The position numbers and the translations under genes are program-made. A DNA stretch of 25,682 bases. Source: a virus. Shown here one piece after another: positions 691 through 13,636 of the stretch. The notes below the pieces were generated by a model. That model was not told the DNA's origin. It saw only the letters and a program-made list of their open reading frames with translations, and did not search any database. Every line of letters begins with the position of its first letter. Position 1 is the first letter of the stretch. The DNA is taken from positions 1 to 25,682 of the IMG/VR virus record IMGVR_UViG_3300046517_000943. One strand, 5' to 3'.

Positions 691-1092
691 TCAACGAAGC
701 TCGATGGATGGAAGGATGACGTTCGGCTTGAACGTCACTTGATAGCTGGAAGTCGAGACGTTCGTCTCATCCAGTTGCTCGACGAAGTAGGTCACGTTAT
801 CCGACAGGCCCAAGATGTTCTTCTTGTACTTCGTGTCCGAGATCTTGCACGTGACCGTAATGCTCTTGGCGGACTCGCCAGCTTTGATGGCGCAGAGCCC
901 GCGAATCTCGAGCATGTATTTGTCCGTGATCCCGTTGTAGAACACCACCCGGCGAGGGATCTTGAAGTTGTCCGCATCATTCGACAGATTCTTAGATGCC
1001 ACGTCTGCATCTCGTTCACAGCCTGTGAGGGCAACCGCAACAGCGACCACCGTGACCCCGATCCAAATGATCGCGAAGAGTTTCATGTTCAT
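691..1092 (-). CDS. Small lipoprotein, predicted beta-rich
   Basis: 133 residues. A hydrophobic signal (residues 4-21, KLFAIIWIGVTVVAVAVA) is followed by a lipobox LTGC at 22-25, so Cys25 should be lipidated after signal peptidase II cleavage and the mature 109-residue protein anchored in a membrane. The mature part has alternating hydrophobic/polar strands (RRVVFYNGI, SITVTCKIS, NVTYFVEQL, YQVTFKPNV), which suggests a beta-sandwich of a type seen in small phage lipoproteins. AGGGGAG precedes the ATG by 6 bases. A phage lipoprotein expressed from an early/middle region may be a superinfection-exclusion or envelope-modifying factor (inference); lysis spanin is an alternative, but no inner-membrane partner is adjacent. 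Confidence 0.82.
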   Translation of the reverse strand: MNMKLFAIIWIGVTVVAVAVALTGCERDADVASKNLSNDADNFKIPRRVVFYNGITDKYMLEIRGLCAIKAGESAKSITVTCKISDTKYKKNILGLSDNVTYFVEQLDETNVSTSSYQVTFKPNVILPSIELR

Positions 1093-3894: not shown

Positions 3895-4270
3895 CCTTCT
3901 TGGTCTTCTTCGGCATGGGATCGCGCCCCTTGCCGTCGTCACGCGCTCGGAAGTAATCGCGAACTCCAGCCATCCAGTCTTCGTCTTCGGCGGCGTTGAA
4001 TTTCTCGATGATGATTTCGAGTTCATTCAGCGCCGTGCGATCCCGTTCCAGCCATCCGAGATCGCTTTCGTATTCCCTCTTGGCGCGGGCGATCCGCTCG
4101 GCGTAGGCCATCGTGCGGATGCTGGACCCTTGCAGATGGATATCGGTTTGAGGGAACTCGGTGGTGATCCCCAGTTCATACATCCGAATCCGATGGGATT
4201 TTTCGGCGGCGGCTTTCATCAGGCCCGTCCGGGCATGCCACAAGATCGATCGGAAAGTCTGTGCGTCCAT
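3890..4270 (-). CDS. Hypothetical helical protein, 126 aa
   Basis: Start at ATG 4270 (MDAQTFRSILWHARTGLMK), with GGAGGAG 7 bases upstream; the longer open frame to 4339 would translate through the hairpin repeat at 4294-4331. Predicted mostly helical, with a long charged segment (AERIARAKREYESDLGWLER) that could form a coiled coil, and a basic end (GKGRDPMPKKTKKV). Preceded by a 5' leader carrying two stem-loops. No family recognised. Confidence 0.72.
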   Translation of the reverse strand: MDAQTFRSILWHARTGLMKAAAEKSHRIRMYELGITTEFPQTDIHLQGSSIRTMAYAERIARAKREYESDLGWLERDRTALNELEIIIEKFNAAEDEDWMAGVRDYFRARDDGKGRDPMPKKTKKV

Positions 4271-4293
4271 GTTTCTTCTCCTCCAGCGCAAGT

Positions 4294-4331
4294 GCTGGCG
4301 GATCGAGCGCCCGCAGGCGCTCTCACCGTCA
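4294..4331. repeat. 38-bp direct repeat, copy 1, with internal hairpin
   Basis: An exact 38-base match to 4840-4877. Inside is the inverted repeat GAGCGCC-CGCA-GGCGCTC (7-bp stem). Just to its left, CCAGC-n6-GCTGG forms a second stem with the repeat edge. The copy fills the untranslated leader of the 3890-4270 gene, between the stop of the upstream gene (4336) and the ribosome site. Confidence 0.85.
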
Positions 4332-4335
4332 GAAC

Positions 4336-4560
4336 TCACCAGTCCCTGGCGTTGAGTTCCTGTTCGTGATACATGCGCGCCCGCCAGCGGAACAACTGGA
4401 AGGCTTTCCTCATCGTGGCGTGCTTGCCGATCTCCTCGGCAATCTCGTCATCGGTCCAGCACTCCACGATGTAATCCCACCTGATGTGCCTCTTGTTGTA
4501 GCGCCGCAAGGCGTGTTCCTTCACGGCCTTGACGCCTGCGGCGATCTCTTCCTTTGTCAT
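4336..4560 (-). CDS. Hypothetical phage protein, 74 aa
   Basis: MTKEEIAAGVKAVKEHALRR, followed by YNKRHIRWDYIVECWTDDEIAEEIGKHATMRKAF. The stretch RWDYIVECWTDDEIAEEIG reads like a degenerate HTH-like helical bundle, but I would not assign DNA binding from it. Shine-Dalgarno TAGGAGAAAGCA is nearly identical to that before the 1780 start. Its stop is followed immediately by the 38-bp repeat. Confidence 0.72.
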   Translation of the reverse strand: MTKEEIAAGVKAVKEHALRRYNKRHIRWDYIVECWTDDEIAEEIGKHATMRKAFQLFRWRARMYHEQELNARDW

Positions 4561-4569
4561 TGCTTTCTC

Positions 4570-4803
4570 CTATGCTCCGCGCCTGCTGCCAACATGCATC
4601 TTGCCCTGATGCCACCAGACCCTGCTGGTCAACAGGTCCTCGTCGAACTCTCCCGGCGTGCCAGCGGCCGGGACGACCTTTTGGACGCACGCCGAATCTC
4701 CGTCCTTTATGGCACTGAAGAACCACTGCCATGCGAGCCACGGGTCCGTCGTGGTATATCCACGCGGCCCTAGGCTCTTATAGCTGACTGATACGATGAA
4801 CAT
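4570..4803 (-). CDS. Hypothetical phage protein, 77 aa
   Basis: Start at ATG 4803 (MFIVSVSYKSLGPRGYTTT) with GCAGGAGGTAGC upstream. The extended open frame to 5028 is excluded because it runs through the second 38-bp repeat and out of frame with the 4889-5104 gene. Contains DPWLAWQWFFSAIKDGDSACV and ends in WWHQGKMHVGSRRGA. Soluble, aromatic-rich, no family recognised. Confidence 0.72.
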   Translation of the reverse strand: MFIVSVSYKSLGPRGYTTTDPWLAWQWFFSAIKDGDSACVQKVVPAAGTPGEFDEDLLTSRVWWHQGKMHVGSRRGA

Positions 4804-4813
4804 GCTACCTCCT

Positions 4814-4826
4814 GCCCTCACCGGGC
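4814..4826 (-). promoter_or_regulatory. Leader hairpin before the 4803 gene
   Basis: GCCC-TCACC-GGGC immediately before the AGGAGG site, identical in stem and loop to 1984-1996 and 5117-5129. Together with the adjacent 38-bp repeat the leader holds three stem-loops. Confidence 0.5.
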
Positions 4827-4839
4827 GTTTCCAGCGGCT

Positions 4840-4877
4840 GCTGGCGGATCGAGCGCCCGCAGGCGCTCTCACCGTCA
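4840..4877. repeat. 38-bp direct repeat, copy 2, with internal hairpin
   Basis: Exact copy of 4294-4331, 546 bases away and in the same orientation. The GAGCGCC/GGCGCTC stem is intact, and the left-hand CCAGC/GCTGG stem is also rebuilt (CCAGC-GGCT-GCTGG) although its loop differs from copy 1. That argues that structure is what is conserved. Confidence 0.85.
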
Positions 4878-4888
4878 CCAGCCGCCCG

Positions 4889-5104
4889 TTAGACGGCCAT
4901 CGTGATGTCGAGAAGATCGCCGGGCTTGACGGGGTAGTCGGCCTTGAGGATGTACCACTTCTTCGCCCAGTCGGGCGTTTCATCGGGGGCGTCCGCCCAC
5001 GCATAGACCCAGCAGCCCTTGGTCTCACGCGCGAAGGCGTAAATCCGGTTGCCGATGACCGACGTTGCGGTCTTGCTGCCCTTCACAACACTCAACTTTG
5101 CCAT
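4889..5104 (-). CDS. Hypothetical phage protein, 71 aa
   Basis: Start at ATG 5104 (MAKLSVVKGSKTATSVIGN) with CAAGGAGGCTGAT upstream; the frame extends to 5167 only through the hairpin leader. Predicted beta-rich with aromatic residues (RIYAFARETKGCWVYAWAD, DWAKKWYILKADYPVKPGD). No cysteine cluster or membrane segment. First gene from promoter copy 4. Function unknown. Confidence 0.73.
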   Translation of the reverse strand: MAKLSVVKGSKTATSVIGNRIYAFARETKGCWVYAWADAPDETPDWAKKWYILKADYPVKPGDLLDITMAV

Positions 5105-6894: not shown

Positions 6895-7082
6895 TTCGGC
6901 TCGCTTTTCCAAATGTGAGCGTAGATGGCCTGCCTAGACACTCCCATCTGTTCCGCTATTTGAGCTACTGGAATCTTGTCCGCTCGAAGGCTCTGGATCC
7001 TTTCGGTCTTCAGAGCCAGACGCCCCGGGAGCCTCCCATACCTTTTGATCGGCACCGCTGGCGGCTTTGTCTTTGTCGTCAT
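6891..7082 (-). CDS. Small helix-turn-helix protein, 63 aa
   Basis: Basic N-terminus (MTTKTKPPAVPIKRYGRLPG), then ALKTERIQSLRADK and a clear helix-turn-helix IPVAQIAEQMGVSRQAIYAH (about 37-56), ending in IWKSEPK. The HTH resembles resolvase/Hin-type or MerR-like recognition helices (xIAxxxGVSRxxIY). AGGGG lies 6 bases before the ATG. It overlaps the 3' part of the DUF3310 gene by 149 bases in another frame and the helicase start by 4 bases. Possibly a local transcription regulator or a DNA-binding partner of the helicase; the target is unknown. Confidence 0.78.
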   Translation of the reverse strand: MTTKTKPPAVPIKRYGRLPGRLALKTERIQSLRADKIPVAQIAEQMGVSRQAIYAHIWKSEPK

Positions 7083-7590
7083 CACTTACCCCTTCTTCCG
7101 TTGCATCGAATCCGAATGGATGTTCTTGACCATCCGTCCGGACCTTCCTTCCCCCGCTGTCGTATTCCCTCAGCAGGCGCTGCGACGGCTGCTCATCCAA
7201 GAGCTCGGCTATGAGGCCGCGCGCTTCTCGAACATCGTCGCTTGCCTGCCAACGATACAGCAATTCGATGGCTCTGCATACCGACGGATTCGGGATCTTG
7301 TTCGCCGAGCAGAAAAGTCCAACCGTGCTGGCATCCGGGATCGGAACCGCTCGGTTCTCCCTTTCGTTCATCGCTATCTCTTCAAGGAGCTTGTCCACGG
7401 TGTGCAGAGCCTTCTGCAGGTCCTGGACCGGGATCCCCTTCTTGTCCCAACGCACCAGATACTTGGTCGCCAATGCTTCCAGATACCCGATGTTGTAGGA
7501 CTCGACGAGATCCCAATGCTGATAGTTCCCAGCCTGGGAATAGTGATCCCCGCCAACCTGATAAGTATTGGCGCGCTTCGTGTCGGTCAT
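6934..7590 (-). CDS. DUF3310-domain protein with disordered tail
   Basis: 218 residues. N-terminal DUF3310 domain (about 8-72): YQVGGDHYSQAGNYQHWDLV, then YNIGYLEALATKYLVRWDKK and GIPVQDLQKALHTVDKLLEE. This domain is widespread in phages, commonly near nucleotide-metabolism genes, and its biochemistry is not established. A second region (about 85-135) has PDASTVGLFCSANKIPNPSV and RAIELLYRWQASDD. The last 50 residues are low-complexity Asp/Ser/Gly-rich and are read out of frame across the HTH gene. ATG 7590 follows GGGAG at 7 bases and overlaps the HD-nucleotidase stop (ATGA). Confidence 0.85.
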   Translation of the reverse strand: MTDTKRANTYQVGGDHYSQAGNYQHWDLVESYNIGYLEALATKYLVRWDKKGIPVQDLQKALHTVDKLLEEIAMNERENRAVPIPDASTVGLFCSANKIPNPSVCRAIELLYRWQASDDVREARGLIAELLDEQPSQRLLREYDSGGRKVRTDGQEHPFGFDATEEGVSDDDKDKAASGADQKVWEAPGASGSEDRKDPEPSSGQDSSSSNSGTDGSV

Positions 7591-8129
7591 GTCTTGACTC
7601 CCGCTGTTTGATTGTGGATATACTGATAGACTCTTTCGATCTCCTCGGGCACGCTTATGTTATCGAACTCATGCAAAGCCTTCCAGTACGAGTCCTTCAA
7701 GTGCAGGTTCCCCGCCAGCAGGTTCTGGCGAATGAACATCCACGCATCGAAAAGATCAGCCGCCTTCAGCCATTGCCGGTCGTCCAGCGTAAGATTCTCC
7801 TCGGTTATGAATCCCCATTCCTTAGATATCGCAGCCTCGGCGAGATCAAGCTCTTGCTTCAGCTTTGGATTTTCCTGCTTGGCCCAGCGGGGCATGTCGC
7901 CAGTCAGATACTCGGGAACGTCGTGCGTTGCCGCCGCCCGCAGCAGGGTTGTGGAAGGATTGGGATGCAGCATGAGGATCCACATCACCACACCCCAGGA
8001 ATGCGCCGCCACATTATCCTCGCGGATGACATAGCCTTTGGTGTGCCAGCGACGGACCTGCCCCGCGTCATAGCAGAACAGAACCCTCCTGGCGAGGAAC
8101 TTCGTCCGGTTATTATAGTCTTCGCTCAT
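7587..8129 (-). CDS. YfbR-like HD-domain 5'-deoxynucleotidase
   Basis: 180 residues, HD phosphohydrolase of the YfbR/YfdR class. Putative metal and catalytic residues: H43 in NVAAHSWGVV, H69-D70 in AATHDVPEYLTGDMPRW with E73 and D78, and D125 in LKAADLFDAW. R27-W28 at the N-terminus matches the RW typical of YfbR. These enzymes remove the 5'-phosphate from deoxynucleoside monophosphates in the cytosol. Coupled by ATGA overlaps to both the ThyA homologue upstream and DUF3310 downstream, which places it in nucleotide-pool remodelling. A plausible role is depletion of an unmodified dNMP that competes with a modified one. Substrate choice cannot be read from sequence. Confidence 0.87.
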   Translation of the reverse strand: MSEDYNNRTKFLARRVLFCYDAGQVRRWHTKGYVIREDNVAAHSWGVVMWILMLHPNPSTTLLRAAATHDVPEYLTGDMPRWAKQENPKLKQELDLAEAAISKEWGFITEENLTLDDRQWLKAADLFDAWMFIRQNLLAGNLHLKDSYWKALHEFDNISVPEEIERVYQYIHNQTAGVKT

Positions 8130-9130
8130 GGTTGCTCTCCACTTGCTTCTAATCTGTTCCTAATCCATTGCAATGCGGCATAGCTCCAATCGCATGGCTG
8201 CATCTCCAGCCTCAGAATGCTCATGGCTGCCTCGGTATCCTTCTGCCTGAAAGTCCACCACGTCTCGTAGAGCGGAACGGCAACCTGTTCGAAGAACTGC
8301 GTCTTCCAAAGGTAGGGCTGAAGCCCCGCCTGCATGGTGAAAACGTCGATAAACCAAGCAGCGTCGTCCTGCCATGCCGCGATCTCCGAAGCGTCCTCGA
8401 GGACCGGGACCGGGCAAGGCTTGATGTCTTGCTCATATAGATTCTTTGGTCCGGGAGCGATCTTTCCAATCATCCGCTTGGTGACATCGAACTCCGTGTA
8501 GAGATGGAAGTTGCTGCTGATCTGGGCGTAGTATCCCACTTTGAGTCCAAGCGCCCGCGCGACGTACTCCTGCAGGAACGAAAAGTGAACCACGTTCGCG
8601 CCATACGCGCCGTAGATCATGTCATTGCTTCGGTTGAAGACCGACATATTCAACGCGCCGTTCACAACGTAGAAGGCGATGCCGACGTTGCACGGGATGT
8701 CCTTCCCTGTGAGGAAGCAATCCGCCTGTTGGAAGATCGGGATGTAGGCGCGGCGCGTGTCCGGGTCCTTCCGCAGCATCTCGATGATCGTCGGCAGCAC
8801 TTCCTTCCAGCGGTAGCCGTAGGACGACACCAGAGTCACGCCGTCGTCGGAAAAATCCATCATGTGCTTGTTGAACTTCGCCAGCCAAGCGACTTCGTTC
8901 CGCCCCGCCAGCATCCAGATGGATTCGAAGAAGTGAAAGAACGGATTGCAGTCCCTCACCTTGTCGAACAGCACCCGCTCGCGCGGCTTTGTGAAGATGG
9001 TCGTGACGGGTTCCACCGCCATGCGGACCGGACCGTTGCGAGACTGCTTGACGACGATGCCGTCGTTGCTCCACATCCGATGCCAAAGGATTGGAAAAGC
9101 TTCATTGATGTTATCGACTTTGTATTCCAT
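8126..9130 (-). CDS. Thymidylate synthase-family enzyme (candidate dUMP hydroxymethylase)
   Basis: 334 residues, ThyA superfamily. Conserved positions visible: YGYRW at 104-108, paired R126-R127 (phosphate arginines), catalytic C147 in DIPCNVG, RSND at 167-170, N179 (the Asn that selects dUMP over dCMP in ThyA), and the NFHLY box with H209 and Y211. Differences from canonical ThyA: the PPCH box is PCN (His replaced by Asn), QRS is NRS, and one residue is inserted between RSND and N179. The family methylates dUMP or, in phages, hydroxymethylates dUMP/dCMP using methylene-THF; N179 favours dUMP. Within a putative base-hypermodification cluster, 5-hydroxymethyl-dUMP synthesis is my leading guess; ordinary dTMP synthesis is the alternative. 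GGAGGAACAGGTC precedes ATG 9130. Confidence 0.85.
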   Translation of the reverse strand: MEYKVDNINEAFPILWHRMWSNDGIVVKQSRNGPVRMAVEPVTTIFTKPRERVLFDKVRDCNPFFHFFESIWMLAGRNEVAWLAKFNKHMMDFSDDGVTLVSSYGYRWKEVLPTIIEMLRKDPDTRRAYIPIFQQADCFLTGKDIPCNVGIAFYVVNGALNMSVFNRSNDMIYGAYGANVVHFSFLQEYVARALGLKVGYYAQISSNFHLYTEFDVTKRMIGKIAPGPKNLYEQDIKPCPVPVLEDASEIAAWQDDAAWFIDVFTMQAGLQPYLWKTQFFEQVAVPLYETWWTFRQKDTEAAMSILRLEMQPCDWSYAALQWIRNRLEASGEQP

Positions 9131-9142
9131 GACCTGTTCCTC

Positions 9143-9823
9143 CTAATGGACCTGTTTCACGCCCGTTTCGAGTTCACGCAACTGCTCCATCGTGTTCCAC
9201 CCGGCGTAGCCGCGTGCGGGCATCGCCAGCAATCCGTCCATCCGATCGAGCGCGGAACTCAGGTAGACATCAGTGTCGAAGAGCGCCATCCGCAAGGCGA
9301 ACATATTCAGCAGATAGACGCCCGCGACAGCCTGCGTCGAGAGCACGACCTTTTCCTCGATCTTCGTTATGAAATCCCCTTTCGTCTTCACATAGCTCCA
9401 GCGGTCGTCGTGTGCGTCTTTTGGGCGGAACGTGTAGACAATTCCCCGGCATGCGTTCTTCGCCAGCAGACCGAACCCGTCGAGGATGCTTCCTTGATCG
9501 ATGACGTTATCGCAATTCGATATGAGGATATACTGGCGCATCTTGGTCCGACGCATCCACTCGTAGATGGTTCGAGCCTGCCCCGAGGTTGGATTCATAA
9601 AATGCACCGTCGTTTCCCTATTCAACACGGGGCAGCCCATGTCACTCCGCAAAGCGATCTCGATATCCATCTTCTCGGGAGCCATGCTGATGACGCGATT
9701 CATCGCCAGCTTCGGCCCTCGCCCGTCTTCAATCATCAGAAAGGGCTTGATACCCCGTTCCGCAACTCGCTCGCCCCAGCCTGCCGCCGGGACGAACATG
9801 ACCGTATCGTCTATGATGTTCAT
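9143..9823 (-). CDS. Sugar-nucleotidyltransferase-like protein (GT-A fold)
   Basis: 226 residues. N-terminal strand-loop VMFVPAAGWGERVAERGIKP matches the nucleotide-binding G-x-G-x-R...KP signature of NTP:sugar-1-phosphate nucleotidyltransferases (here PAAGWGERV 12-20, K26-P27). TSGQARTIYEW (79-89) matches the nucleotide-sugar region and ISNCDNVID (101-109) gives the metal-binding Asp. Length is close to the single-domain LicC/MurU type. It would join an NTP to a phosphorylated sugar or alcohol. Start ATG 9823 overlaps the kinase stop (ATGA) with AGGAG 8 bases upstream, so kinase and transferase are translationally coupled. Substrate unknown. Confidence 0.78.
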   Translation of the reverse strand: MNIIDDTVMFVPAAGWGERVAERGIKPFLMIEDGRGPKLAMNRVISMAPEKMDIEIALRSDMGCPVLNRETTVHFMNPTSGQARTIYEWMRRTKMRQYILISNCDNVIDQGSILDGFGLLAKNACRGIVYTFRPKDAHDDRWSYVKTKGDFITKIEEKVVLSTQAVAGVYLLNMFALRMALFDTDVYLSSALDRMDGLLAMPARGYAGWNTMEQLRELETGVKQVH

Positions 9824-10575
9824 GTTACGTTCTCCTTCTCTCTCAGCCAGTCAAGGTAGTCGATCTGCACCGCGCAAAGATCCTTTTGCCACGTCTCGGT
9901 CGCGCGCGCTTCTATCCGCATGAAATGGATCTCCGCCCAGAATGCCGCCATGGGCGCTATCCGAAGTATCTCTTGGATCTCCTGCACGTTTTCTTCGTTC
10001 CATCCCTGCCGTGCCGCATCGGTCCAGCCCAGCAGGCTCTGTATCAATTTCCCATAGTCTACGTCCCGGTGTGCCGGGATATAAGAATGCCGGGCGGCCT
10101 GCCAGTCCACCAGCTTGTAGTTCCCCTGCAAGTCTATCACGGTGTTCTCATTCGTCAAGTCTCCGTGCGTCAAGCTGCTCGCGTGACCATACCCGGCCCG
10201 GAGCTCTTTGATCGACGGGATTGCCAGCCGCCGGATCCATCCCCGTTCCTCGATATAGTTCAGCAACCGAGTGGCGTTGAAGGTGTATGCCTTGGGATAG
10301 AACCACCGCTCGGGCAGATACCAGTAGAGCTTCATTATCGCTTCTGCTTTCTGCCAGTTCCACTTGCGGATCCCCGTCGGCGGCCCCAGAGATTCTTTGA
10401 CTGTCTCCATGGCGTACCACGTCGATCCGATCCAATAGATCTTTGGAACAGCCAGAGGCTGCATGTGCCGGATGGCGTGCATGGCGCGGCCTTGCGCCGC
10501 AACCGCAGGCGAGCCGCTCTTTAGAGTGCATAGGGACATGACCCTTATGCTCTCGCCCGACAGAGATCGTTTCAC
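9820..10575 (-). CDS. APH-fold small-molecule kinase
   Basis: 251 residues from a GTG at 10575 that overlaps the glycosyltransferase stop (GTGA), with GGGAGG 6 bases upstream. Aminoglycoside phosphotransferase/choline kinase fold: hinge-like STWYAMETVKESLG (51-64), catalytic loop LTHGDLTNENTVID (135-148; D139, N144), metal-binding YKLVDWQAAR (153-162; D157). The lysine of the N-lobe is not obvious, as often in short APH proteins. Such kinases phosphorylate hydroxyls of choline, aminoglycosides or sugars (AmgK, LicA). Immediately followed by the nucleotidyltransferase, so the likely job is phosphorylation of a sugar or polyol for activation. Direct phosphorylation of a hydroxymethyl base in DNA is a less likely alternative. 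Confidence 0.82.
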   Translation of the reverse strand: MKRSLSGESIRVMSLCTLKSGSPAVAAQGRAMHAIRHMQPLAVPKIYWIGSTWYAMETVKESLGPPTGIRKWNWQKAEAIMKLYWYLPERWFYPKAYTFNATRLLNYIEERGWIRRLAIPSIKELRAGYGHASSLTHGDLTNENTVIDLQGNYKLVDWQAARHSYIPAHRDVDYGKLIQSLLGWTDAARQGWNEENVQEIQEILRIAPMAAFWAEIHFMRIEARATETWQKDLCAVQIDYLDWLREKENVT

Positions 10576-11447
10576 GGTACGCCTCCCAACTCGGCAGCCT
10601 TCTTCCACGCCACGATGATCCGTTTGCCGCCATACAGGGCGGCGTCGGTTGGATTCTTTCGCGACACCGCTTTGACGATCCCCGGATGCAATTCCTCCAT
10701 GCGGTCGGCCCCGACGGAGATATCCTTCATCTTGCGGCAGAGCGATTCTCCCCCTGGAGCATTGAACCCCTTCGGATCGTTGGTCGATCCCCAGTTATAG
10801 CAGGCGTTGCCGTAGCCCTTGGCGAGGAGTTGAAGCGTGTAGTCAAGATCCTCGAACATGCGGGTCTGGTTGAGCTTGCAATTCTGCAGCACCACGTCTG
10901 TCTTGTAGGCGAGTGCATGCGTCGCCTTCGTGTTCAGCGACCACTCGGATCCCTTGGTGTGGTTCATGAACTTCTGCGAGATGCCGCCATGGGCGAACAC
11001 GGTCAGCATCTCCTCGACCTTATGGAGCATCTCATCCATCTGCATCGGATTGGCTCTGTAGCTTGCTCCGTATTGGCGGTTCGCCTTTATGATCTCGGCC
11101 CACTTCTTTGGGTCTCCCTGCCCGTAGCCGTCATATCCAGGATGAAACAGATACCGAGAATAGAACTGAAGGTCATCGTCAAACATAAGGATTTTCTTGT
11201 AGTTCATCCGCCCGGCATGGCGAAAGATCCATGCCCGCTTGGCGGCAATGTTCGGAACGATATCCGGGTTGGGCGTGACGATGGCGTGGAGCCGGGGAAA
11301 CAGCTTGCTCAATTCCTTCCGTTCGTCGGCAGGGCAAACAAGAGTCGTGCGGTCCTTCCACGCCAGCGGCAATCCCGAGAGCGTTATCTGCCTGTCCACC
11401 CGACGGTAGGTCGGGATATAGATCATGAGGTCGTGAATATCGGCCAT
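10572..11447 (-). CDS. GT-A glycosyltransferase, TET-associated (TAGT) type, paralogue 1
   Basis: 291 residues; ATG 11447 has GAGGAGAAAAGCC upstream. N-terminal IYIPTYRRVDRQITLSGLP, TTLVCPADE and the metal-binding DDD at 90-92 (ILMFDDDLQF) define a GT-A core. AAKRAWIF, the AHGGISQKFMNH segment and the C-terminal FEDLDYTLQLLAKGYGNACY match the layout of phage glycosyltransferases described next to TET/JBP dioxygenases (TAGT), which decorate hydroxymethyl pyrimidines in DNA. The gene starts the transcript from promoter copy 5 and is a diverged duplicate of the next-upstream gene. Acceptor and donor are not known. Confidence 0.78.
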   Translation of the reverse strand: MADIHDLMIYIPTYRRVDRQITLSGLPLAWKDRTTLVCPADERKELSKLFPRLHAIVTPNPDIVPNIAAKRAWIFRHAGRMNYKKILMFDDDLQFYSRYLFHPGYDGYGQGDPKKWAEIIKANRQYGASYRANPMQMDEMLHKVEEMLTVFAHGGISQKFMNHTKGSEWSLNTKATHALAYKTDVVLQNCKLNQTRMFEDLDYTLQLLAKGYGNACYNWGSTNDPKGFNAPGGESLCRKMKDISVGADRMEELHPGIVKAVSRKNPTDAALYGGKRIIVAWKKAAELGGVP

Positions 11448-11477
11448 GGCTTTTCTCCTCGCAGCATCCATACCTAC

Positions 11478-11519
11478 AGGGTACCACAGGAATTGGACGG
11501 AGGCTAGCTGAATTTTACT
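11478..11519 (-). promoter_or_regulatory. Repeated phage promoter, copy 5
   Basis: Minus strand AGTAAAATTC (11510-11519), TAGCCT at the -35 position, TACCCT as -10 (11478-11483). The element covers the TAA stop of the upstream glycosyltransferase. No clear 5' hairpin follows here, unlike most other copies. Confidence 0.65.
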
Positions 11520-12402
11520 TGACCTTGCCGCCGCCCAGAAACGGATTCTTTCCGTCTTTAGCCGCTCGCTCCCAATAGCAGATGACCTCGACGCGCGGCA
11601 CGCTGACCTTGTAATCCTTCACGACCGCCTTCACCAGTCCGGGATGGAGCTTCGCCAGCTTGTAGGCGTCGGCGTTGCTTGCCTTCATGCTGCGCTCGAG
11701 ATTGGCTCCGCCTTCCGCGTTATAGCCCTCGTACTGTTCAAAGACGCACCAGTAGTAGACGGCGTTCTCAAAGCCCTTCTTGAGCAGTTGCAGACAGAGG
11801 TCCATGTCTTCACGATGCTCGATCCTCCCCAGCTTGGCGTGCTTGAGAACCGTCGAGACACGATAGCCCAGCGCATAGATCATTCTCTTGTTGAGCTGGA
11901 ATTCGCCACTGATGTTGTTGCTCATCAACCGCGGTGCGATCCCGACATGATGATAGGTGTCGAGCGCCTGCTCTACCCGCTCGAAGGCGCGGGCGGTTTC
12001 TTTGTCCTCGGGGTCTGCCGTCTTGTACAGACTTCCAGCATCTGGATGCGCCACGCAGTAGTCCCGCCATACACGCGCATTGTCGGTCTGGAAACCGGCG
12101 AACTCTTTCGGATGGTTATAGCGCGGGCACGGCGACAGATCGTCATCGAGCATCATGATCTTTTCCCGTTGCGTTTCCGAAGCATATTTGAAAATCCATT
12201 TGCGTTTCTGCGCAATGGTCATGTTCGGATCTGGCTGAGATATGACATTGCACAATGGCCAATTTCTGCGATGGTCATTATGTTCTGCAACGGGACAAAC
12301 GATGGTCGTTCTCTTCTGCCACGCGACGGGCATCCGCTGTAACGTGAGCTGCATGTTCACGCGCCCGCGCGTTGGAATATACAGATAAAGCTTCTTGTCC
12401 AT
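11515..12402 (-). CDS. GT-A glycosyltransferase, TET-associated (TAGT) type, paralogue 2
   Basis: 295 residues; start ATG 12402 overlaps the upstream stop as TGATG. N-terminal LYLYIPTRGRVNMQLTLQRM and KRTTIVCPVAE are the shared GT signature; DDD at 86-88 (IMMLDDDLSPC) is the nucleotide-sugar metal site; IAQKRKWIFKY, VGIAPRLMSNN and REDMDLCLQLLKKGFENAVY complete the TAGT pattern. It aligns with the 10572-11447 product along its length (both have IPTxxRVxxQxTL and AWxxRTTxVCP) but is clearly diverged, which suggests distinct donors, acceptors or a two-step glycan. Predicted to act on phage DNA in the cytosol. Confidence 0.8.
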   Translation of the reverse strand: MDKKLYLYIPTRGRVNMQLTLQRMPVAWQKRTTIVCPVAEHNDHRRNWPLCNVISQPDPNMTIAQKRKWIFKYASETQREKIMMLDDDLSPCPRYNHPKEFAGFQTDNARVWRDYCVAHPDAGSLYKTADPEDKETARAFERVEQALDTYHHVGIAPRLMSNNISGEFQLNKRMIYALGYRVSTVLKHAKLGRIEHREDMDLCLQLLKKGFENAVYYWCVFEQYEGYNAEGGANLERSMKASNADAYKLAKLHPGLVKAVVKDYKVSVPRVEVICYWERAAKDGKNPFLGGGKVK

Positions 12403-12737
12403 CAGTTGGTCCCTTTCAGGCGCTTGTCGATTTCCTTCTTGCGCCTGATCTCGCGCAGGCGTTCCTCGCCAGTATTGGTGAGCTTAAAGACCCGGCATGG
12501 AACCGGCATGTTCTGTTGGGACGGCGGCAGGGCGGGATTGGGAAGGACCATCGCAATGTCGAAGAGCCTGATCCAGCCCATCTCCATGCACTTGATCCAA
12601 GACAGTTGCATCTCCATGTCATGGAACATGCTGCCGAAGCCGACCACCAGCTTATTTCCTGCCGCCTCCTTCAGAACATTCTCCTCGAACTCTGGCTTCG
12701 AGCCGAGACCCGGGACGATAATGGGTTCAAACGCCAT
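12402..12737 (-). CDS. Orphan protein inside the modification cluster, 111 aa
   Basis: MAFEPIIVPGLGSKPEFEEN, then NKLVVGFGSMFHDMEMQLSW and a C-terminus with PCRVFKLTNTGEERLREIRR ending in a basic KKEIDKRLKG. The C-terminal half (RLFDIAMVLPNPALPPS, VFKLTNTGEERLREI) resembles the last part of a winged-helix domain, which is a weak guess. AGAGGAGAATCAAG precedes ATG 12737, and its stop overlaps the glycosyltransferase start. Its position, locked between the aGPT-Pplase-like gene and a glycosyltransferase, makes it a candidate accessory factor. No family recognised. Confidence 0.72.
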   Translation of the reverse strand: MAFEPIIVPGLGSKPEFEENVLKEAAGNKLVVGFGSMFHDMEMQLSWIKCMEMGWIRLFDIAMVLPNPALPPSQQNMPVPCRVFKLTNTGEERLREIRRKKEIDKRLKGTN

Positions 12738-12749
12738 CTTGATTCTCCT

Positions 12750-13598
12750 CTAAAGAAACTTCTCGGTGTACGGCGCGTACTTCTGCTTGCTCCCGCCGCG
12801 CACGTATTTCTGAAATTCGCAGCAGCAATTCTGCACATCCATCAGGTCCAGCCGGCGCGCGGTCGACGGCAGCTTCTGCTTGAGCAGATCGAAGAGCTGC
12901 TGCATAAGGTCTACTCCAAGCGACTGCGATACTTTCTTCGCGTCGGCATCCCCGGCGTAGATGATGTTCAGGCCCTTGATGCTCCCCGGCCCCAACGGAG
13001 CCCAGGTCTTTGCGTCTGCCGACTTGATGATCCCGAAGGTGTGCCAGTCGAAGGCGATCTGGCCAGCCATGAAAGAACCATGCCCCGGATAGTTCCTCAG
13101 CAACAGCCACGACGCCTGGAAGCTGTCGGGTAGACTCGGAAGCCGAAGCATTCCCTGCCACAATGGATGCAGAACCTTGTCGATGACCGAGATATATTTC
13201 GGCATCCCAGGATAGCCGTTGATGATGTAAGCGGCACGGAAGATCCGCACATTGTGGTCTACTTTCTTTTCCAGCAGAGCCTTGTACTTGATTGGAAGCC
13301 AACGGCAGGGCAGGTCTTTCAGAGTCTCAGGCTCGTTGATCCACCGGGCCACGGCGCACGCCATCCACCGATGCGCTGGGTCCCAGTCTTGCACCCATTC
13401 TCCAATCCACTTGGTGACCCGGTCGTCGGCCCGCCGCACGTTGCAGAAGGAATATTCGTGGAGCACATCGTCATTGGTCCACGGTCGAGGATCGCCCCGC
13501 TCCTTCTTGATCCTGATCGCGTCCCGCTCGGCGACGAACCGGACAAACGTGTCCTTCCGTTGCTCGACCGTATCCATGTCTCGAATGAGGGTGGACAT
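12750..13598 (-). CDS. aGPT-Pplase / 5hmdU-kinase-helical-domain family protein
   Basis: 282 residues from ATG 13598, chosen because AAGGAG lies 6 bases upstream; the ATG at 13604 abuts it. Diagnostic segments of the alpha-glutamyl/putrescinyl-thymine pyrophosphorylase superfamily: GDPRPWTNDDVLHEYSFCNV and RRADDRVTKW (35-64), a helix-hairpin-helix-like LLLRNYPGHGSFMA (165-178), WAPLGPGSIKGLN (199-211) and a C-terminal DVQNCCCEFQKYVR (254-267). The fold is related to HhH DNA glycosylases. In hypermodified phages, members act on DNA carrying activated 5-hydroxymethyluracil and install the final side chain. No P-loop kinase domain is fused here, although 5hmdU kinases of this class often carry one. 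Strongly suggests a hypermodified thymine in this phage. Confidence 0.85.
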   Translation of the reverse strand: MSTLIRDMDTVEQRKDTFVRFVAERDAIRIKKERGDPRPWTNDDVLHEYSFCNVRRADDRVTKWIGEWVQDWDPAHRWMACAVARWINEPETLKDLPCRWLPIKYKALLEKKVDHNVRIFRAAYIINGYPGMPKYISVIDKVLHPLWQGMLRLPSLPDSFQASWLLLRNYPGHGSFMAGQIAFDWHTFGIIKSADAKTWAPLGPGSIKGLNIIYAGDADAKKVSQSLGVDLMQQLFDLLKQKLPSTARRLDLMDVQNCCCEFQKYVRGGSKQKYAPYTEKFL

Positions 13599-13636
13599 CT
13601 GCATCTCCTTCTTCTATAGAGCAGTCCCGAATGTTC

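Follow-up and report, generated by a model that had tools for sequence, protein, structure and literature searches.

Why would a phage place an HMUDK_hel protein, which in Pseudomonas phage M6 adjoins a P-loop 5-hydroxymethyldeoxyuridine (5hmdU) kinase (PF18748), in one gene cluster with two TAGT glycosyltransferases? Could a single protein serve different enzymes on the same base? The question is raised by a cassette in the IMG/VR record IMGVR_UViG_3300046517_000943, a viral fragment of 25,682 bases (25.7 kb) that was analysed whole and is referred to here as the window. Thymidine hypermodification has been pictured as amino-acid chemistry that a DNA kinase begins. The cassette described here, together with its relatives, suggests that a second and widespread branch runs in parallel, with the chassis of hydroxymethylase, HMUDK_hel and HD protein unchanged but feeding glycosyltransferases. 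We think it probable that the cassette makes a glycosylated thymine (5-hydroxymethyluracil, hmU) in phage DNA, using a ThyA homologue, the TAGTs, an APH-fold kinase and a nucleotidyltransferase for the sugar donor, and HMUDK_hel as a partner. The genes, in order of transcription, are the following.

12750..13598, minus strand: HMUDK_hel protein (PF18723), relative of M6 gp55 ('aGPT-Pplase1'); Pfam 5.6e-39
12402..12737, minus strand: 111-residue orphan; no family, confined to the window's sub-lineage
11515..12402, minus strand: TAGT glycosyltransferase 1, LDDDL intact; Pfam 8.8e-20, phrog_842 1.2e-40
10572..11471, minus strand: TAGT glycosyltransferase 2, FDDDL intact; Pfam 7.3e-18, phrog_842 4.6e-36
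9820..10608, minus strand: APH-fold small-molecule kinase, HGDLTNEN ... VDW; Pfam APH 0.0015, family alignment, hhalign
9143..9823, minus strand: predicted sugar-1-phosphate nucleotidyltransferase; AlphaFold 2 model, Foldseek, family profile, phrog_3980
8126..9130, minus strand: predicted ThyA-family dUMP hydroxymethylase; Pfam 2.1e-17, phrog_5131 9.8e-91
7587..8129, minus strand: YfbR-like HD deoxynucleotidase; Pfam 1.1e-11, 34% identity to M6 gp59
6934..7590, minus strand: DUF3310 protein, a conserved neighbour; phrog_5839 5.3e-26, synteny

Which base is modified? In the ThyA family, Asn at position 177 reads deoxyuridine monophosphate (dUMP), whereas enzymes that hydroxymethylate dCMP carry Asp there; a further mark of hydroxymethylases is loss of the Trp shielding the methylene intermediate. 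The window ThyA keeps Glu58, Tyr94, Cys146, Arg166, Ser167, Asp169, His207 and Tyr209 (E. coli ThyA numbering) and has Asn at position 177; Trp80 is replaced by Met and is not the commonest residue in TAGT or kinase loci. The catalytic Cys, Arg, His and Tyr, Asn177 and a missing Trp80 are what is expected of a dUMP hydroxymethylase. The Asn equivalent is found in 128 of 129 TAGT loci and in all 54 kinase loci. Its closest isolated relatives are M6-like enzymes (39% identity to Yuavirus ThyA), some of them annotated as deoxyuridylate hydroxymethyltransferase, and hypermodified thymidine is present in the DNA of M6 (PMC9476957). Because of these residues and relatives, the modified base is very probably thymine/hydroxymethyluracil, in agreement with the ThyA-type dUMP hydroxymethylase proposed by a first-pass annotation of this DNA. 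The enzyme would convert dUMP to 5-hydroxymethyl-dUMP, to be raised to the triphosphate and incorporated. The Asp-type hydroxymethylase of T-even 5-hydroxymethylcytosine (hmC) glucosylation is not what the window encodes, and with Asn rather than Asp at the specificity position hmC was dropped as the favoured reading. As had also been proposed, a ThyA-type enzyme takes the place of a TET/JBP dioxygenase, none of which is present among the annotated window genes.

What is added to this base? Both window TAGTs score above the PF20691 cut-off (71.9 and 65.7 bits against 27.5), and the DDD motif, invariant in the family alignment, is intact in both copies, so that the pair of glycosyltransferases predicted earlier is upheld. 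The T2/T6 TAGT puts a second glucose onto DNA that is already glucosylated (PMC13216743). After replication, the window TAGTs would attach a first sugar to the hydroxymethyl group, probably followed by a second; the order of addition is tentative. In the TAGT tree neither all first copies nor all second copies group together: the window's two copies lie close to each other, and the first copies of the other cassettes form a clade of their own. Since copies do not group by position, paired TAGTs seem to have more than one origin, and they fit a disaccharide without proving one. A polyol-linked thymine, raised in the first-pass annotation, was dropped, the cassette having no gene to make a polyol. 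A sequence search of the PDB with TAGT and HMUDK_hel returned nothing meaningful.

Where does the sugar come from? The 9143..9823 product has no Pfam match. Its AlphaFold model (predicted local distance difference test, pLDDT, 87.4; predicted template-modelling score, pTM, 0.86) matches GDP-mannose pyrophosphorylase (GMPP), GlmU and RmlA in the PDB at E ~1e-10 (Foldseek), and its family profile reaches the NDP-sugar pyrophosphorylase 4evw at 7.6e-13; on these fold and profile matches it is assigned as a nucleotidyltransferase of the sugar-1-phosphate type. In the alignment of its neighbour's family, the APH motif HGDxTxxN and a D are invariant. Homologues of the two occur in 12 of 61 non-redundant TAGT loci and in none of 48 kinase loci, and the pair always has TAGT glycosyltransferases next to it in the census of loci. 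A precedent is offered by phage RB69, in which ORF053c (an NTP_transferase) and ORF052c (an APH-like kinase) are in fact one protein of 561 residues (PMC6024577). The window APH family aligns with ORF052c at an hhalign probability of 95.5% (E 1.5e-8; common HGDPxxxN...DP), and phrog_3980 is matched by both the window nucleotidyltransferase family and ORF053c. TH1_060 of Shewanella phage Thanatos, likewise of 561 residues with glycosyltransferase/phosphotransferase domains, is needed for propagation; its authors relate it to T4-like phages whose cytosine is arabinosylated, and a UDP-xylose pyrophosphorylase, TH1_063, is encoded next to it (PMC12838424). The two window proteins resemble the halves of RB69 ORF53_52c (Thanatos TH1_060), a protein implicated in supplying sugar donors for phage DNA. 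By this analogy their likeliest role is the conversion of a sugar to sugar-1-phosphate and on to the nucleoside diphosphate (NDP) sugar, as proposed for the fused protein. Fold, profile and the RB69 comparison thereby favour the sugar activation suggested earlier; the donor would probably be one that the host does not supply.

Does the cassette exist beyond this one fragment? Two further metagenomes yielded contigs matching the window at 99.5-99.9%, so an assembly artefact was dismissed. To gather loci, viral contigs were scanned with TAGT and HMUDK_hel alignments; the locus flanks were taken out to 8-10 kb, and many of the contigs are fragmentary. The order HMUDK_hel-TAGT-TAGT-APH-nucleotidyltransferase-ThyA-HD-DUF3310 recurs in divergent relatives from 13 distinct viral lineages, across which identity of the APH and nucleotidyltransferase proteins falls to about 20%. 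The cassette is therefore real, and the neighbourhood search proposed in the first-pass annotation did recover the set. Three of the 13 lineages have a single TAGT, one of these (L025) being rearranged, and some have additional intervening genes. L025 has two HMUDK_hel copies (4058-5020 and 9147-9983), one near ThyA and the other adjoining TAGT-APH. Outside the window's own population, homologues of the 111-residue orphan were found in L009/L010 only; confined to this sub-lineage, the orphan is outside the conserved gene set, and it has no Pfam or PHROGs family match. No TAGT was found in 84,980 bacterial/archaeal species genomes.

What, then, does HMUDK_hel do in a locus of glycosyltransferases? 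The window protein matches the family over its full length (134.6 bits against a curated cut-off of 25) and is 29% identical to M6 gp55. Its AlphaFold 2 model is all-helical (pLDDT 92.9) and matches PhiW-14, SP10 kinase and amino-acid:DNA transferase (ADDT) proteins in BFVD, the amino-acid:DNA transferases at E ~1e-4; the SP10 '5-hmdU DNA kinase' (637 residues) contains a region of this fold. A fold search of the PDB gave nothing significant; OGG1 DNA glycosylases appear among the sub-threshold matches (E ~1) and are not used as evidence.

Partners are distributed in a strikingly exclusive manner. Among 241 HMUDK_hel loci, 136 have a TAGT, 68 have the P-loop 5hmdU kinase, 37 have neither and none has both. 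In the 92 non-redundant loci with complete neighbourhoods (4 kb or more on either side), 43 carry a TAGT, 28 the kinase and none both, where 13 would be expected (hypergeometric p ~1e-10, ignoring ancestry). The kinase was not found in the window fragment, nor within 8-10 kb in the 136 loci with TAGT and HMUDK_hel, and short Walker-A proteins less than 5 kb from HMUDK_hel are seen at 0 of 43 TAGT loci versus 24 of 28 kinase loci. The remaining genes of the amino-acid pathway follow the kinase: the amino-acid:DNA transferase (PF18724) is present in 37 of 48 kinase loci and in 0 of 61 non-redundant TAGT loci, and pyridoxal-phosphate (PLP) enzyme genes (18/48) and radical-SAM genes (26/48) never occur with TAGT. 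Neither the kinase nor the PF18724 transferase, both expected of M6-type amino-acid hypermodification, is found in the window. In the 84,980 bacterial/archaeal species genomes, HMUDK_hel lies on ten contigs of bacterial assemblies, accompanied there by TAGT or kinase but never by both.

A quick tree of 141 HMUDK_hel sequences requires at least 11 switches between TAGT and kinase partners, and even when only its well-supported branches are counted, each label must change at least 7 times. The polar residues R27, N55, R58, D61, K136, C262, E263 and K266 are invariant in both types, suggesting that the protein performs a single task on one and the same base. Because of the exclusivity, the switches and the restriction of the amino-acid:DNA transferase to kinase loci, HMUDK_hel looks like a common partner that handles hmU for interchangeable enzymes, and its presence here does not look like evidence for amino-acid hypermodification. 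The first-pass annotation had it act on activated (pyrophosphorylated) hydroxymethyluracil, a role that sits badly with TAGT loci, in none of which was a 5hmdU kinase or an amino-acid:DNA transferase found. It may engage DNA or hmU, serving a glycosyltransferase in the window and standing beside the P-loop kinase in M6-type phages, apparently fused to it in SP10. The modified DNA would be shielded from host nucleases.

The arrangement fits best with a constant chassis of ThyA and HMUDK_hel, often joined by HD and DUF3310, that has an exchangeable tailoring slot. In kinase-type and TAGT-type loci alike, the YfbR-like HD gene follows ThyA. Several loci with neither partner have other genes at this place: a GT-B-like protein between HMUDK_hel and ThyA (L082, 950-2230; L095, 5895-7163), sulfotransferase-like proteins before ThyA (L158, 10855-12571; L243, 2031-3022, the latter also with an APS-kinase-like protein), and an FkbM methyltransferase before ThyA (L150, 11061-11813). 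A separate cluster of HMUDK_hel genes (L230-L251) has no ThyA, kinase or TAGT nearby. As a bolder conjecture, which we hold only tentatively, HMUDK_hel could be a general adaptor that presents hydroxymethyluracil to a repeatedly swapped enzyme (5hmdU kinase, TAGT, possibly GT-B, sulfotransferase-like or FkbM proteins), with the APH/nucleotidyltransferase/paired-TAGT version assembling a disaccharide on thymine from a sugar foreign to the host and so creating a DNA base not yet described.

Could other readings account for the same genes? HMUDK_hel might itself be a transferase that puts a small molecule, an amino acid or another nucleophile, onto hydroxymethyluracil, with the TAGTs glycosylating the adduct to give a composite hypermodification. 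Its fold is common to amino-acid:DNA transferases and its invariant polar residues are the same in both types of locus; yet no activating kinase lies near TAGT loci, and M6 has a separate amino-acid:DNA transferase, gp51, the gene for which is absent from 61 of 61 TAGT loci. We regard this reading as unlikely. A cytosine base, with the ThyA homologue as a dCMP hydroxymethylase and the TAGTs glycosylating hmC as in T6, would accord with the T-even TAGT acting on glucosyl-hmC and with the Asp at the ThyA specificity position of Microbacterium phage Nucci, which has TAGT and HMUDK_hel; it is made very improbable by the dUMP-type Asn in the window and nearly all TAGT loci, and by the M6-like deoxyuridylate hydroxymethylases being the best ThyA relatives. 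APH plus nucleotidyltransferase also describes LicA/LicC, and the pair might make a cytidine diphosphate (CDP) alcohol, choline- or ethanolamine-like, so that the modification carries a phospho-alcohol. CTP:phosphocholine cytidylyltransferase is indeed a weak profile match (0.013), but sugar-1-phosphate enzymes score far better (7.6e-13), glycosyltransferases always adjoin the pair and the RB69/Thanatos precedent is a sugar; we give this version very little credence.

Glycosylated thymine made with HMUDK_hel as a partner remains the reading we prefer, and several points weigh against it. Loci were sampled by similarity to two kinds of query, which biases the frequencies, and the p-value takes no account of common descent. 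As the window is a fragment, a 5hmdU kinase could lie elsewhere. HMUDK_hel could be the catalyst rather than a partner, given the fold it has in common with the amino-acid:DNA transferase family. The Pfam APH match (0.0015) is under the cut-off in the window protein, and the window nucleotidyltransferase family aligns weakly with RB69 ORF053c (hhalign probability 29%).

How does the cassette compare with known systems? That it could not be matched to a described phage, as first stated, is too strong, given the core genes of LuckyBarnes, the glucosylated thymine derivatives of SP-15 and the sugar-activation proteins of RB69/Thanatos. Brevibacterium phage LuckyBarnes, an isolate, has the same four core families as the window in a contiguous ThyA-TAGT-TAGT-HMUDK_hel array, with the dUMP-type Asn in its ThyA. 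It differs in gene order and has no APH/nucleotidyltransferase pair, and its TAGT pair arose separately, since in the tree each of its two TAGTs has the other as its nearest neighbour; no DNA modification study of this phage was found in the literature. The core ThyA/TAGT/HMUDK_hel set is thus not unknown in isolates, and novelty rests on the partner census and the APH/nucleotidyltransferase extension. M6, with its 5-aminoethyl-2'-deoxyuridine (5-NedU) cassette, has a homologous ThyA-type hydroxymethylase, HMUDK_hel, an HD protein and a DUF3310-like gene. Unlike the window, it has the P-loop 5hmdU kinase, the amino-acid:DNA transferase, radical SAM and PLP enzymes, and no TAGT, APH or nucleotidyltransferase.

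RB69 and Thanatos, which place a pentose on cytosine, combine a ThyA-family hydroxymethylase with the NTP_transferase-APH sugar-donor protein (PMC6024577, PMC12838424). The two activities, fused there, are separate genes in the window; no HMUDK_hel was seen in the stretch examined, and the proposed RB69 arabinosyltransferase is a GT-B enzyme, unlike the window TAGTs. Bacillus phage SP-15, with a glucosylated, phosphoglucuronated dihydroxypentyluracil and phage-encoded sugar-nucleotide enzymes (PMC5977210), has in common with the window prediction a glycosylated hypermodified thymine; ThyX-type synthases, a polyol side chain and teichuronic-acid-like genes set it apart, and no TAGT/HMUDK_hel cassette is described for it. 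In TET/JBP-TAGT phage systems the hydroxymethyl group comes from a TET/JBP dioxygenase (L077) and, unlike in the window, HMUDK_hel is absent. The TAGT loci without HMUDK_hel are L066-L079, a set of classic TET-type TAGT systems that serves as contrast, those examined carrying TET/JBP (L077) or ParB-like (L072) genes.

Cultured phages carry the core, LuckyBarnes as it stands and Microbacterium phages in a divergent version, and the chemistry could be checked without the uncultured phage. The proposed glycosyltransferase branch gives HMUDK_hel a role that can be tested and leads one to expect further glycosylated DNA bases; it would also be a source of DNA glycosyltransferases that use hydroxymethyluracil. 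Microbacterium phages Nucci (L161, 2387-8132) and Fulton (L272) have TAGT(s), HMUDK_hel and a ThyA homologue. Because of the Asp in its ThyA, glycosylated cytosine is predicted for Nucci; relatives of its TAGT occur in 174 cultured Microbacterium phages.

The seven genes named in the first-pass annotation (8126-13598) follow one another closely on the minus strand, with gaps of +12, -1, +43, -37, -4 and +12 nt. Gene calls and all named families hold (HMUDK_hel, two TAGTs, APH-fold kinase, nucleotidyltransferase and ThyA, from Pfam, PHROGs, fold and family profile), and profile searches place the 12750-13598 and 11515-12402 products in DNA-modification families. No fusions among cassette proteins were found. 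The operon runs on past ThyA, overlapping by 4 nt into the HD gene and again by 4 nt into the DUF3310 gene, and continues with a helicase. For HMUDK_hel, an AAGGAG lies 6 nt upstream of the start at 13598 and abuts an alternative ATG at 13604; the properly spaced ribosome-binding site makes 13598 the better start.

A DNA-level search for phages closely related to the window found none. A perfect 39-bp direct repeat is present at 4293-4331 and 4839-4877, 546 nt from start to start. The gene at 691-1092 (minus strand; Pfam VG64) strongly matches phrog_478, a phage family with the annotation recombination directionality factor, at 1.1e-51, a hint of temperate ancestry.

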